This document shows, one piece after another, positions 25,133 through 31,361 of a stretch of DNA of 54,021 bases (positions are counted from its first letter, which is position 1; each line of letters opens with the position of its first letter). The notes under the pieces were generated by a model. It was not told the origin of the DNA. It was given only the letters and a program-made list of their open reading frames with translations, and did not search any database. Origin of the DNA: a bacterium (GTDB lineage: Bacteria > Patescibacteriota > Minisyncoccia > Phycocordibacterales > JAKAEA01); contig JAJYGQ010000019.1 in the NCBI GenBank assembly GCA_021785065.1, forward strand, positions 1-54,021. The letters are read 5' to 3'. A program made the translations under genes and the position numbers.

Positions 25133-25669
25133 TTACGGTTTAGCAACTGCCCACACTCCCTTGATACCATTACCACTTGTATTGCCCGGTGCTGTATCCT
25201 TGCTCCAGAAGTAGAGCGGCAGGCCTTTATAGGTTACTTGGGTTGTGCCATTTGAGCGCGTGATGGTGCCGATTGCTCCTGTAATGCCTGCGGCAGCGGT
25301 GAGGTGAGTTGAAGAGGCGACGGTATAGGGTGGCCAGAGTGTGCTGCAAATGCCCGTACATGCACTTTTACCAATTGAATCTTTAGCATAAACGTACAGC
25401 GTCATACCGTTTGCGGCGGTGAGGTAGCTGCCAAGTGTTGGACTTGTCTTTAGGGCCAGGGTGTAATAGGGAATCATGGGCGCACCAGTGCTAGCGGTGG
25501 TGGTTGCTTGTTGCGCTTGTGGAGCTGGTGTTGTGTTAAGCGCGGTTGTTGGCGCTTGAGCTGTATTTTGTGATAAAAGATATATTACTATTCCAACAAC
25601 GATAAGGATAAGTACGATACCAATAACCCATCCCGTTGCACTTCCCGAATTTTTTCTTATAAAGTTCAT
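25133..25669 (-). CDS. Membrane-anchored secreted protein with Yx(F/W/Y)xxD repeats
   Basis: A 178-residue protein with an N-terminal membrane anchor (about 12-34), a Thr/Ala/Pro/Gln linker (36-65) and an outer domain with the repeat motif of the COG4315 family: GMTLYVYAKDSIGKSACTG and LPLYFWSKDTAPG, with two cysteines in CTGIC. Family members are secreted or lipid-anchored proteins of unknown function, found in many bacteria. The domain is complete, ending GIKGVWAVAKP. It is transcribed away from trpS. The 106-nt region between them is AT-rich and contains the palindrome ACGATT-ATA-AATCGT at 25728-25742. Confidence 0.8.
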   Translation of the reverse strand: MNFIRKNSGSATGWVIGIVLILIVVGIVIYLLSQNTAQAPTTALNTTPAPQAQQATTTASTGAPMIPYYTLALKTSPTLGSYLTAANGMTLYVYAKDSIGKSACTGICSTLWPPYTVASSTHLTAAAGITGAIGTITRSNGTTQVTYKGLPLYFWSKDTAPGNTSGNGIKGVWAVAKP

Positions 25670-26834: not shown

Positions 26835-27152
26835 TTAAGATGTGGTTGTTGCGCAGCTTGTAGCAACTGCAGTAATTGCGTCATCAGGTGGTACTACCGA
26901 AAGAAAATTAATAGGGATTGACGAAGTACTGGCATACGAAGAATTTGCCGAGAGTAGCAATTGAGTCACAGCCTGACAAGAGCCTAAAGATATCTCTGAG
27001 CGGACATATTCTAATGCCGCAGTAAATTGGTCATCGAGTGCGGTGAGGCGATATACGTGCATGACTAGGAGTAGTGTTACCAGGGCACTTAAAAACATAA
27101 CACCTATAAGCGCCACAAAGCCTCGATGTCCTTTTTTAATTTGTAATTGCAT
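26835..27152 (-). CDS. PilX/GspK-like minor pilin-like protein, last gene of the pilus operon
   Basis: A 105-residue protein with a hydrophobic N-terminal helix (about 10-33, HRGFVALIGVMFLSALVTLL) after a basic leader. The leader ends in Gly before Phe as in prepilins, but the conserved Glu at mature position 5 is absent (Gly-x-x-x-Ile-Gly). That exception is characteristic of GspK/PilX-like components that sit at the tip. The rest is a small Ser/Thr-rich domain with two cysteines. It overlaps the preceding prepilin gene by 17 nt, so it is co-translated with the cluster. Confidence 0.55.
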   Translation of the reverse strand: MQLQIKKGHRGFVALIGVMFLSALVTLLLVMHVYRLTALDDQFTAALEYVRSEISLGSCQAVTQLLLSANSSYASTSSIPINFLSVVPPDDAITAVATSCATTTS

Positions 27153-27531
27153 GATAATACTCTAGTGACGTAGGTGTTGTGCTACCAGAAGAAAATACTA
27201 TGCCTAAATGATCTATGTTTTTTACAAGCGTCAATGCTCCGAGGAGTTGAGAAGACGAAGTACTTTCGATATGAGTGGAGATGCTGTCTAGGGTGTGCCA
27301 TGTGCTGAGATCGATAGAATGTTTTGCGCTCGTGTAGTCTGGAGCGGCGTACACTATGCTATCTATTTTTTCCGCTACGAACACTGATGCTTCTTGTTGC
27401 TTGGCTAATTTTTCAAATTCAATATTTAGACGGGATATAGACAGCCATGTGCTCGTTACCTCAATCAGTAGTATAGAAAGTAGGGCACTATACACGACAA
27501 ATTCTATAAAAGTAAAACCATTATGGCGCAT
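27136..27531 (-). CDS. Type IV prepilin-like protein
   Basis: A 131-residue prepilin. The class III signal is very short: MRHNG then FTFIEF, with cleavage after Gly5 and the conserved Glu at mature position 5, leading a hydrophobic helix (FVVYSALLSILLIEV). The rest is a small globular region of low similarity to anything I know. It overlaps the upstream propeller-prepilin gene by 11 nt and the downstream gene by 17 nt. Confidence 0.75.
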   Translation of the reverse strand: MRHNGFTFIEFVVYSALLSILLIEVTSTWLSISRLNIEFEKLAKQQEASVFVAEKIDSIVYAAPDYTSAKHSIDLSTWHTLDSISTHIESTSSSQLLGALTLVKNIDHLGIVFSSGSTTPTSLEYYHAITN

Positions 27532-28954
27532 ATTCGTAGTGTTTAAGGGCTAGAATAGTTGGTGCTTGGTCGGCAGCATACACCGGACTGTATATCGTAT
27601 TATTTTCGTAATCCAAACCAACACTAGACGTAGTACTAATGAGGTTGGGCTGCTCTATAAATTTTTTTGATGATGTTGCGGCGATAGCGTGTAGGGAAAA
27701 AATACCAGCATTGGTTGCGATGAGGAGGTGATGCGCCAGTGCGCGAATGCTATAAACTGTTGCTGCAAGAGAACTTGAAGCAGTAATGATGGGGGTATAT
27801 GGATTATGTACATCAAGTGCCACTAATTCTGGATGGTGGCCCGATCCACTACCTTTTTGTCGACCAGCATAGAGAGTGGAGCCAAGTAAAAAAAGTCGCT
27901 CCGTATATTCTGTGCCGGTAAAAGCTATGCTAGCTATCTTAGTAGGGTGGAATGGATCATGTACATCCACAACAATAATATCGCTCGTATTTCCTGAAGC
28001 GGCGAGGTAAGCGTAATTGCCCGAGACTATAATGTCGTAGATATTATGATTTAACCACACCGAACCAAGCCACTGTGGATTGTGGGGGTCGGTAACGTCA
28101 AAAATGTGGAATTCATTTCCAGCAGTGCGGTGAGTACCAACGTAAACCCGTCCCGCATAGTAGTAAATGCTTAAACCCGAAGGATACGAACCGTGGACTC
28201 CTGGTAATGAACGAGAAGCGATGATACTAGGCGCGCTAGGGTTGCGGACGTCTATAATTTGTAGCTGACTTGTCGAACCGGTCACTGCAACATAGGCGTA
28301 GCCGCCGGCGACATCGAGAGCGTTAATTGGTGGTAGTGCGAGTCGTGAGAGAATGGGATGGGTGGCGTCGCGCGGGGTAACAACAAGAAAATTAAAACCA
28401 TCCGTTGAAGATGCTCCTAGGTATGCATTACCAGCAAAAAAATCAAAGCTCGTAATATGGGTGATAGGGGTCGCTGTACCATAGTGTGTTGCGTAATTTG
28501 AGTATGGATAAATCATAGTAGGCGGCGAAAATGGGGGCGACATGCTATAAGGATTCATAAAACCTCCGCAATCGCTACCCTGTGCTTTTTGGGCCGATTG
28601 ATCAATGTAAAGTTCATTAAGAAAAATCGGATGAAAACCGCGTAGTGTTGTGGTGGCATAGGTTATAGCTTCCGCTTCTTTGAGGCAGGGAGTAAGACTC
28701 GTAATAGTAGATTGTGTTACTAAATTTTTATCACTACTTTGTAACTCGGTAGTATTGGCGATTGTTTTTTCTAACACGGCTTTCGTTGTATAAAGTGCTT
28801 GACCATAGAAAACGAGCCGTTCAAGGTTATGTATCTGCGTGACAAGTGTCGGTAGAGCGATACTTGCAATAGTACTGAAGATAACTAGTGCAATAATCAC
28901 TTCTATAATTATCGAGCCCCGAGTATGGTTAGTATTGTAATTCGCCATTTTCAT
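27521..28954 (-). CDS. Prepilin fused to an LVIVD-type beta-propeller
   Basis: A 477-residue protein. Its N-terminus is a class III prepilin signal: leader ending at Gly13, mature start SIIIE with Glu at position 5, then a hydrophobic helix (VIIALVIFSTIASIALP). After a ~110-residue pilin-like region (with a CGGF disulphide candidate) come four to five repeats of a beta-propeller blade: LQIIDVRNPSAPSII, FHIFDVTDPHNPQWLG, IIVVDVHDPFHPTKIA and LVALDVHNPYTPIIT, each ~45-50 residues apart. This is the LVIVD repeat pattern (strand-I/V-D-x-x-x-P-x-x-P). The start at 28954 is chosen because the upstream prepilin ends at 28929, a 26-nt overlap. It is likely a surface-exposed, possibly tip-located pilin with binding function. 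Confidence 0.75.
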   Translation of the reverse strand: MKMANYNTNHTRGSIIIEVIIALVIFSTIASIALPTLVTQIHNLERLVFYGQALYTTKAVLEKTIANTTELQSSDKNLVTQSTITSLTPCLKEAEAITYATTTLRGFHPIFLNELYIDQSAQKAQGSDCGGFMNPYSMSPPFSPPTMIYPYSNYATHYGTATPITHITSFDFFAGNAYLGASSTDGFNFLVVTPRDATHPILSRLALPPINALDVAGGYAYVAVTGSTSQLQIIDVRNPSAPSIIASRSLPGVHGSYPSGLSIYYYAGRVYVGTHRTAGNEFHIFDVTDPHNPQWLGSVWLNHNIYDIIVSGNYAYLAASGNTSDIIVVDVHDPFHPTKIASIAFTGTEYTERLFLLGSTLYAGRQKGSGSGHHPELVALDVHNPYTPIITASSSLAATVYSIRALAHHLLIATNAGIFSLHAIAATSSKKFIEQPNLISTTSSVGLDYENNTIYSPVYAADQAPTILALKHYEYAP

Positions 28955-29210
28955 ACAGGGTGATTGGTGCAGAAAATGTGGCAACAGAAAAATTTATTGT
29001 TTTGGTTGAGGTGCTTATAGTTGGCGAGCGGGTTTGTATAAATGTATCAAGAGCCGTTTCTCGTTTTGAAAAACTAAGCCACTGATTATATTGGCCAATT
29101 GATACGCCCAAACTGAGTGTGGTGAGTATCGTACATAATGCTAATACCACCACGAGCTCAATAAGAGTAAACCCTTTAATGTATGGAGCTGACTGATTGT
29201 GAGAGGGCAT
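28929..29210 (-). CDS. Small type IV prepilin (pseudopilin)
   Basis: A 93-residue prepilin. The leader MPSHNQSAPYIKG is followed by FTLIELVVVLALCTILTTLSL, the textbook N-methylation/cleavage motif with Glu at mature position 5. The C-terminal domain is very short, so it resembles a GspH/FimT-type minor pseudopilin. It overlaps pilC by 35 nt and the propeller prepilin by 26 nt. Confidence 0.85.
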   Translation of the reverse strand: MPSHNQSAPYIKGFTLIELVVVLALCTILTTLSLGVSIGQYNQWLSFSKRETALDTFIQTRSPTISTSTKTINFSVATFSAPITLYENGELQY

Positions 29211-30261
29211 AAATAGGTAAAATCATAGCGAGAGCGATGAATCCAATAGCGCAGCCCATAAGTACCATAAGCACCGGTTCTAAAAGACTCGACCATTTTT
29301 TAATCGACTCTTCGTACTCATTCTGAAAATAGTCTGAAAGAAATGATAATGTTTCGACCAGTGATCCGCTTAATTCTGCAGCAGAGATGAGTTGAATCAT
29401 CGTATCAGGAAACAGTTTGGGATATGCGGCGAGAGCCCCAGATATTGTGTTCCCTGATTCTATATTGGTTGTAATGCGCTCTACTGCGCGAGCGTACACG
29501 CTGTTGTGTGGCTGAGAACGAAGCAGTCCTGTGCTAATAGATATGCCGCTCGAAGTAAGCGTTGCTAGAGTACCAGTGAAGAAACTCAGTGTTTGATTTT
29601 TGATAATAGTGTTTAGTAGGGGGATAGAAAGCAGCACTCTGTCATTTAATTTTTTTATACCGGTTCGAATACTGTGGTGTTTGCTCGCGATAAAACCTAT
29701 CAATATTATGCCGCTCAATAGGACAATACCAGTTACCCAGTGTTGCTTAATTGTGTCGGAAATTACTATAAGCACTCTTGTGGGAAGGGGGAGATTGGTG
29801 TGCATGCTTTCTAAGAGCGGCCGAATTTTAGGAAAGATACCGAATGTCATGCCACCCGTTAAAACGACAGACAAAAGAGCGATAGATATTGGATAGGTGA
29901 GAGCCGACAATGCTTTTTTACGGCTCGTATCTCTTTTAACAAGCTCTTGCCCGCATCGCTCTAATGCTTGGCGTATTGAACCAGATTCTTCACCGGCCTC
30001 AATAACTGATATGAGTCCAGGCTTGATAGTCGTTCGTTGTGTAAGAGATTGCCACAACGGGAAACCCGACGCGAGATCAGCCCGAATTCGCTCTAAAAAT
30101 TTTCGGCGTGGATTAGTGGTGGCGAGTGGAGTACTACTTAAAGCGATGCACTCAGTCAATGTCGCGCCAGATTTTAGAAAGAATCCAAGCTGTTTAAAAA
30201 TTATGATTTGGTCTCGTAACCGGAGTTTAATTTTCTTTTTTTCTGAGTTTTTTTGCAACAT
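29176..30261 (-). CDS. pilC: Type IV pilus inner-membrane platform protein (PilC/GspF)
   Basis: A 361-residue polytopic platform protein around which pilins are assembled. Two T2SSF domains are seen. The first opens with IIFKQLGFFLKSGATLTECI and the second has LSFFTGTLATLTSSGISISTGLLRSQP. Membrane segments are at ~140-160, 185-203 and the C-terminus (LEPVLMVLMGCAIGFIALAM). It begins 8 nt after the PilB stop, so the ATPase and platform are co-expressed. Confidence 0.93.
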   Translation of the reverse strand: MLQKNSEKKKIKLRLRDQIIIFKQLGFFLKSGATLTECIALSSTPLATTNPRRKFLERIRADLASGFPLWQSLTQRTTIKPGLISVIEAGEESGSIRQALERCGQELVKRDTSRKKALSALTYPISIALLSVVLTGGMTFGIFPKIRPLLESMHTNLPLPTRVLIVISDTIKQHWVTGIVLLSGIILIGFIASKHHSIRTGIKKLNDRVLLSIPLLNTIIKNQTLSFFTGTLATLTSSGISISTGLLRSQPHNSVYARAVERITTNIESGNTISGALAAYPKLFPDTMIQLISAAELSGSLVETLSFLSDYFQNEYEESIKKWSSLLEPVLMVLMGCAIGFIALAMILPIYALSQSVSSIH

Positions 30262-30269
30262 AAAGTTTT

Positions 30270-31361
30270 TTATAATGTGCTTAACATCTCTGCTTTTTCG
30301 ATTAGACCCTGTTCAGCTTTTGCTGCGCCGTCATCAGCAAGTGTTTGCATACCTTCATGTTCAGCAATAGTTTGAAGGTGGGATAGTGTCGGCGCAGTAG
30401 TAATAGCTTCACGAAGAGCGTCGGTTATAGTCACGAGTTCATATACTGCGATGCGTCCATGAAAGCCGGTGTAATTGCACGCTCGACAACCCTCGGGCCG
30501 TTTGCAGCGCTGACATTTTTTGCGAATTAATCGTTGAGCGATAATTGTTTCAAGAGTTGCGGAAATGAGATAGGGAGCAATACCCATATCAAGAAGGCGA
30601 ATAATAGCGGAAAGAGCGGTGGTGGTGTGGAGCGTAGAAAATAATAGATGGCCTGTTAAGGCTGCGTGTATTGCTATGTGCGCCGTATCTGTATCGCGAA
30701 TTTCGCCAACCATAATCACATCTGGATCCTGTCGCAATATCGAGCGAAGACCTGCAGAAAAGGTAACTCCGTGTTCTGCGTCAACTTGAATTTGTCGAGC
30801 GGTGGGCAATATGTACTCAACTGGATCTTCAATGGTGACGGTCAGGCGATCAGATGTAATGAGTCGCAAAAGACTATACAACGTTGTTGTTTTTCCAGAA
30901 CCGGTTGGTCCTGTAATAAGAATCATGCCGCGTTTTCGACGTATTGCGGTTGCTAAATGTTTTGCATCAGTGGCGCTGATGCCCAACGACTCTATCTGGG
31001 CAAAATCTGGTCTGTCTCTTAAAATTCGCAATACGGCAGATTCGCCATAGTACGTTGGCATAATAGAGACGCGGATATCGCCCTGATGATATGGCCGTGT
31101 TAATCGACCATCTTGTGGTAGGTGGTGTAAATCAGTTCGTATTCTAGCCAGAATTTTAATACGACTAATAATACTGGCGTGAAGTGATTTTGCTAGACGA
31201 TGCTGTACTAATAAAAATCCGTCTGTCCTGAAGCGGACCAGTACACCACTTTCAAATGGATCAATATGAATATCGGATGCGCCCGCTCGGTCGGCCTCCT
31301 GCAGGATATTTTCCACTAAAGCCGGCAGATCGGTATTTTCTCCGCTTCCATGTAAATCCAT
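30270..31361 (-). CDS. pilB: Type IV pilus assembly ATPase (PilB/GspE), short form
   Basis: A 363-residue secretion ATPase driving pilus extension. The Walker A motif is GPTGSGKTTTLYSLL; Asp- and His-boxes are seen as TIEDPVEY and HIAIHAALTGHLLFSTLHT, and Walker B as DPDVIMVGEIRD. The four-cysteine metal site (CQRCKRPEGCRAC) marks the GspE/PilB rather than PilT type. The protein begins directly at the N2 domain (ASDIHIDPFESGVLVRFRTDG). The usual N-terminal N1/MshEN domain of ~150-200 residues is missing, and no ORF of that type lies upstream. It leads the pilus genes. Confidence 0.93.
   Translation of the reverse strand: MDLHGSGENTDLPALVENILQEADRAGASDIHIDPFESGVLVRFRTDGFLLVQHRLAKSLHASIISRIKILARIRTDLHHLPQDGRLTRPYHQGDIRVSIMPTYYGESAVLRILRDRPDFAQIESLGISATDAKHLATAIRRKRGMILITGPTGSGKTTTLYSLLRLITSDRLTVTIEDPVEYILPTARQIQVDAEHGVTFSAGLRSILRQDPDVIMVGEIRDTDTAHIAIHAALTGHLLFSTLHTTTALSAIIRLLDMGIAPYLISATLETIIAQRLIRKKCQRCKRPEGCRACNYTGFHGRIAVYELVTITDALREAITTAPTLSHLQTIAEHEGMQTLADDGAAKAEQGLIEKAEMLSTL

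Follow-up and report, generated by a model that had tools for sequence, protein, structure and literature searches.

The window (the whole stretch of DNA analysed, 54,021 nt from a bacterium of the Patescibacteriota) carries a type IV pilus (pil) locus on its minus strand (-), to which all window coordinates of genes and features below refer. The locus begins with a gene for a pilB-type ATPase of 363 aa (30270..31361; PF00437, 1.4e-110), followed after a gap of 8 nt by the platform protein gene pilC (29176..30261; PF00482, 1.6e-44). Downstream of these are a short prepilin with Glu at +5 in the first, GspH-like slot (28929..29210; PF07963, 9.8e-07), a propeller-bearing prepilin of 477 aa in slot 2 (27521..28954), a third prepilin in a GspJ/PilW-like position (27136..27531), and, in the fourth, GspK/PilX-like slot, a pilin-like protein recognised from its sequence (26835..27152). 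The third-slot prepilin again has Glu at +5; its PF07963 match (8.2e-04) is under the cut-off, and the slot is conserved in relatives. The fourth-slot protein has a hydrophobic N-terminus and counterparts in two other loci (L004 and L005); no Pfam match was found for it. The first-pass annotation had counted four prepilin-like genes here, which suits the first three, but the fourth is without Glu at +5 and has a GspK/PilX-type look. H-I-J-K is the gene order of the core minor pilins in type IV pili (T4P) and type II secretion systems (T2SS), and the order in the window resembles it, with the propeller prepilin in second place.

From pilC onward, neighbouring genes overlap, by 35 nt (pilC and the first prepilin), 26 nt (first prepilin and propeller gene), 11 nt (propeller and J-like genes) and 17 nt (J-like and K-like genes). 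These overlaps had initially been taken to imply both co-translation and fixed stoichiometry. An overlap of the propeller gene with the gene upstream is seen in 33 of 65 homologous loci, and with the one downstream in 28 of 56. The overlaps are thus not conserved, and fixed stoichiometry was rejected on this ground; they are compatible with co-translation, and are not evidence of fixed stoichiometry. The window also encodes, close to the pil cluster and in the same orientation, a 178-aa protein (25133-25669) that has a membrane helix at its N-terminus and repeats of PF03640 (Lipoprotein_15).

The propeller prepilin ORF is complete, with an ATG start, and is a real gene; a same-genus homologue is 62% identical, with the MKM start common to both. 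Residues 1-13 (28916..28954) form a class III leader peptide. The N-terminus reads MKMANYNTNHTRG, ending in NHTRG, followed after the predicted cut by SIIIEVIIALVIFSTIASIALPTL; cleavage is predicted between G13 and S14, with G at -1 and Glu at +5. For the window protein by itself, Pfam gives only a marginal N_methyl match (E=0.012, under its cut-off). In a 44-member family alignment, with members 19-60% identical to the window protein, the cleavage Gly is invariant (44/44) and position +5 holds Glu (40 members) or Asp (four); no pilC-linked homologue whose N-terminus is intact lacks the signal. This comparative evidence settles the prepilin signal for the window protein despite the marginal N_methyl match. 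N_methyl is the only pilin model reported by Pfam, with no match to a curated GspI/PilV model, and “GspI/PilV-type” as used below therefore describes a place rather than family membership, based on gene order and on homology to the bare pilins found in slot 2 elsewhere.

Pilin module, propeller and neck cysteine

The pilin module spans residues 14-131 (28562..28915) and consists of a hydrophobic helix with the Glu at +5 and a globular part. It aligns with stand-alone slot-2 pilins over 130 columns (hhalign, A3 vs A5: probability 99.4%, E 6.8e-22). In the AlphaFold2 model of the window protein this module has low confidence (pLDDT mostly 26-63).

Residues 164-472 (27539..28465) form an LVIVD-type beta-propeller according to Pfam, AlphaFold2 and Foldseek. 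The PF08309 (LVIVD) match is at 3e-13, with 49.3 bits against a gathering cut-off of 20.2 and two repeats scored. In the AlphaFold2 model, made from a five-sequence alignment, the N-terminus is a long helix, the middle is poorly predicted, and residues ~164-472 form a propeller; there, block pLDDT is mostly 75-96 as far as residue ~420 and drops to 39-76 in the last blade. Six blades in the model are complete and four-stranded (166-206, 210-248, 260-299, 305-343, 351-394 and 400-440) and a seventh (453-472) is closed by N-terminal strands, giving a modelled blade count of seven. Propellers run throughout the best Foldseek matches in the PDB; the seven-bladed WD40 domains of beta-TrCP are among them, with E ~1e-11 and a TM-score to target of 0.56-0.66. 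The model of a Kaiserbacteria homologue (L040) has, at low confidence, a helix and then a short, pilin-like antiparallel sheet, and its propeller was also read as seven-bladed, at lower confidence than in the window model. A phmmer search of the PDB with the single window protein gave no match; the family profile matches solved structures, best a haloalkylphosphorus hydrolase (5hrm, 6.6e-05), along with geopilin N-termini and other propellers of known structure. No Pfam match to RCC1, another propeller type, was found in the window protein, nor any in its own genome at E<=1e-6. The first-pass reading of a class III prepilin N-terminus fused to an LVIVD-type propeller is thus borne out by the cleavage Gly and E/D at +5 in the family, PF08309, AlphaFold2 and Foldseek. 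As in a modular type IV pilin, the propeller is an extra domain not specific to pilus biology.

At the junction between pilin module and propeller is a neck cysteine, Cys129 (28568..28570), invariant in the 41 homologues with this column filled (41/41). The window protein has exactly two cysteines, so that the only possible partner of Cys129 is Cys90 (28685-28687). Among the 41 homologues, 17 have only the cysteine at the Cys90 position, 23 have only one in the last blade (in the column of window position 449), and one has both; three homologues without Cys129 are also without both partners. The exclusivity is strong by Fisher's test (p 1e-10), with counts that are not independent, the tree needing only two or three changes. 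Since the tree needs just two changes for each partner label, the pattern is essentially one old split into two subfamilies, not repeated switching. The simplest reading of these sequences is that a predicted disulphide ties the neck down, to the pilin module in some homologues and to the closing blade in others. A search for one oxidase, VKOR, gave no match in the window genome or the genomes of its family members.

Homologues and the variable second slot

With the 44-member profile, near full-length matches of 440-670 aa were found in about 50 of 297 sampled genomes of the same order, and about 30 more homologues in sampled genomes from elsewhere in the phylum (both totals are manual counts from profile-search listings). 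The fusion seen in the window is therefore widespread. The named relatives are Taylorbacteria and Kaiserbacteria, which most likely puts the organism on the Paceibacteria/Parcubacteria side of Patescibacteria. Very large frames (1000-5600 aa) with LVIVD-like matches also occur in the same order, for example one of 5580 aa (G056:C18), and stand apart from the pilin-sized family.

Context could be read for 67 full-length homologues, and 65 of these have pilC or another prepilin as the closest gene upstream, in a few cases across a gap of >400 nt. The usual order in the loci read is pilB, pilC, a prepilin, the propeller prepilin and a prepilin, often with the major pilin next; in nearly every readable locus the propeller gene sits at this one point of the series pilB, pilC, (H-like prepilin), propeller prepilin, (J-like), (K-like). 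A prepilin N-terminus serving only as a membrane anchor or signal, with the propeller displayed on the cell surface and no assembly into a filament, is highly improbable given this position in the pil locus, the invariant cleavage Gly, E/D at +5 and an entire homologous pilin module, even though LVIVD repeats often occur in proteins of the cell surface (PMC10210494) and other large LVIVD proteins exist in the same order.

The fixed slot adjoining pilC and the HIJK-like set, together with a very conserved propeller core (E281 in 42/44, Y271 in 41/44 and G364 in 43/44 members of the alignment), would also suit a core assembly or priming subunit, whose propeller serves to stabilise or regulate the tip complex and itself binds ligands little or not at all. 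PilY1 has such a role in addition to adhesion. In several genomes of the order and phylum, however, the same locus occurs with a bare pilin of 140-290 aa in slot 2 in place of the propeller prepilin, which indicates that assembly does not, as a rule, require the propeller, and makes such a role unlikely.

The second slot has other occupants as well. In four loci it holds a prepilin with a long extension in which no convincing Pfam domain was found: 745 aa in L147 (5220-7454), 713 aa in L148 (3732-5870), 572 aa in L149 (4392-6107) and 826 aa in L150 (5182-7659). These extensions are candidate tip heads. Another locus (L154, 3588-7637) has two propeller pilins in tandem, one of them extended by a Big_3_5 bacterial Ig-like domain. 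With bare, propeller-bearing and otherwise extended pilins in the same place, the propeller looks like a module, gained or lost in the course of evolution, on what is otherwise a normal minor pilin of I/V type. Slot 2 could even be a general display position, although this is put forward tentatively: the same I/V-type carrier would come without a head, with an LVIVD propeller or with another long, unassigned module, and lineages would exchange the head at the tip, perhaps as the host changes, and leave the other parts of the tip complex as they are.

RCC1 propellers on PilX-like N-termini without Glu5, resembling PilX2 of Nanosynbacter lyticus, were found in at least two loci of other Patescibacteria (L183, 697-2328, and L191, 784-2604). 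The LVIVD propeller of the window protein, in contrast, is on an I/V-type carrier with Glu5, and these sequences suggest that propellers may have been joined independently to different tip pilins.

Other pilus genes and the likely role of the propeller prepilin

The pilB-type ATPase of the window locus has no MshEN domain, which two other copies in the genome (571-584 aa) carry. In this slot of the pil locus the ATPase is about 400 aa in many relatives in the order and 550-600 aa in other classes. On another contig of the genome there is a second locus (L177, 6996-13437) with pilB (584 aa, MshEN), pilC and a prepilin; it also holds a 655-aa PilX-like protein without Glu5, for which no Pfam match was found. 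The organism may thus make two filaments, as N. lyticus does. The probable major pilin (L179, 7270-7755) is on a different contig from the pil cluster, and in a same-genus relative the major pilin directly follows the K-like gene. A prepilin peptidase was not found in the window's own assembly, which is 92%-complete; since all ten relatives searched have one (10/10), the gene probably lies in the missing part.

The HIJK set is common to type II secretion, T4P and Com filaments (PMC10191384), and the second pilB-pilC-prepilin locus could encode the main pilus, leaving the window locus to a T2SS- or competence-like pseudopilin filament for secretion or DNA uptake, whose propeller would bind substrate or DNA. 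In relatives, however, the same locus ends with a typical major pilin (GFTLIEILVVIGIIAILA...), and such a role seems quite improbable.

The window gene probably encodes a modular minor pilin whose propeller is shown at the pilus tip as an adhesin, most likely for a ligand on the surface of another cell. Fusion, propeller fold, homology of the pilin module to the stand-alone slot-2 pilin and conserved locus order are findings of the computational analysis; cleavage, assembly order and tip location are proposed from what is known of type IV pili, and binding to a host by analogy. Prepilin peptidase would cut the propeller prepilin after Gly13, and its helical N-terminus would bring it into a tip-priming complex with the adjoining H-, J- and K-like subunits. 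The PilB/PilC machinery would then push this complex outward with the major pilin behind, so presenting the LVIVD propeller at the tip, where it would most likely bind its ligand on the other cell. HIJK tip complexes are capped by a K subunit without Glu5 (PMC10191384), and as the fourth gene of the locus is also without Glu5, the capping role would fit it.

Proteins of this kind are already known. The modular pilins surveyed by Raynaud et al. 2021 have, like the window protein, a prepilin module with a grafted non-pilin domain, for example PilB (vWA) and PilC (lectin) of S. sanguinis, and include a Falkowbacteria prepilin with 12 IPR013211 repeats (PMC8179133). As IPR013211 denotes the LVIVD repeat (PMC10210494), patescibacterial prepilins with LVIVD had been listed by 2021. 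For the LVIVD case, neither locus nor slot nor fold is given in the main text of that survey (PMC8179133), whereas the protein type described here is a conserved form of 460-630 aa in a fixed slot beside pilC.

The other close parallel is PilX2 of N. lyticus, described in 2025, likewise a patescibacterial minor pilin with a C-terminal seven-bladed propeller, which contributes to host binding; its deletion reduced binding from about 10.6% to 4.6% of host cells (PMC12206443). PilX2 differs in having an RCC1-type propeller, no predicted PilD signal and the designation of a PilX-type subunit, in contrast to the LVIVD-type propeller, canonical prepilin signal and GspI/PilV-type carrier with Glu5 of the window protein. 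GspI/PilV-type core minor pilins share the second place in the H-I-J-K order, and the window module is homologous to the bare slot-2 pilins; the difference is about 330 extra residues forming the propeller.

The first-pass annotation had also proposed that the function of PilY1 is here built into a pilin. A tip adhesin within a pilin is still the best reading, by analogy, but descent from PilY1 was rejected: the PilY1/PilC tip adhesin is a separate non-pilin protein of the PF05567 propeller family, unlike the window protein, a prepilin with a pilin module. The propeller here is LVIVD-type and PF05567 is not among the Pfam matches of the protein; a search of the window genome and the 297 order genomes, run without a positive control, gave no PF05567 match either. 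In the literature searched, no earlier description was found of the fixed slot, its exchangeable contents or the cysteine pattern.

A propeller-tipped minor pilin would bear on the question of how uncultured Patescibacteria recognise their partner cells. Conserved in roughly one in six of the genomes sampled from the order, the propeller prepilin provides a single head domain for expression and ligand tests, and its fixed position in the locus offers a way to find the heads of other lineages, even where the module belongs to no known family.
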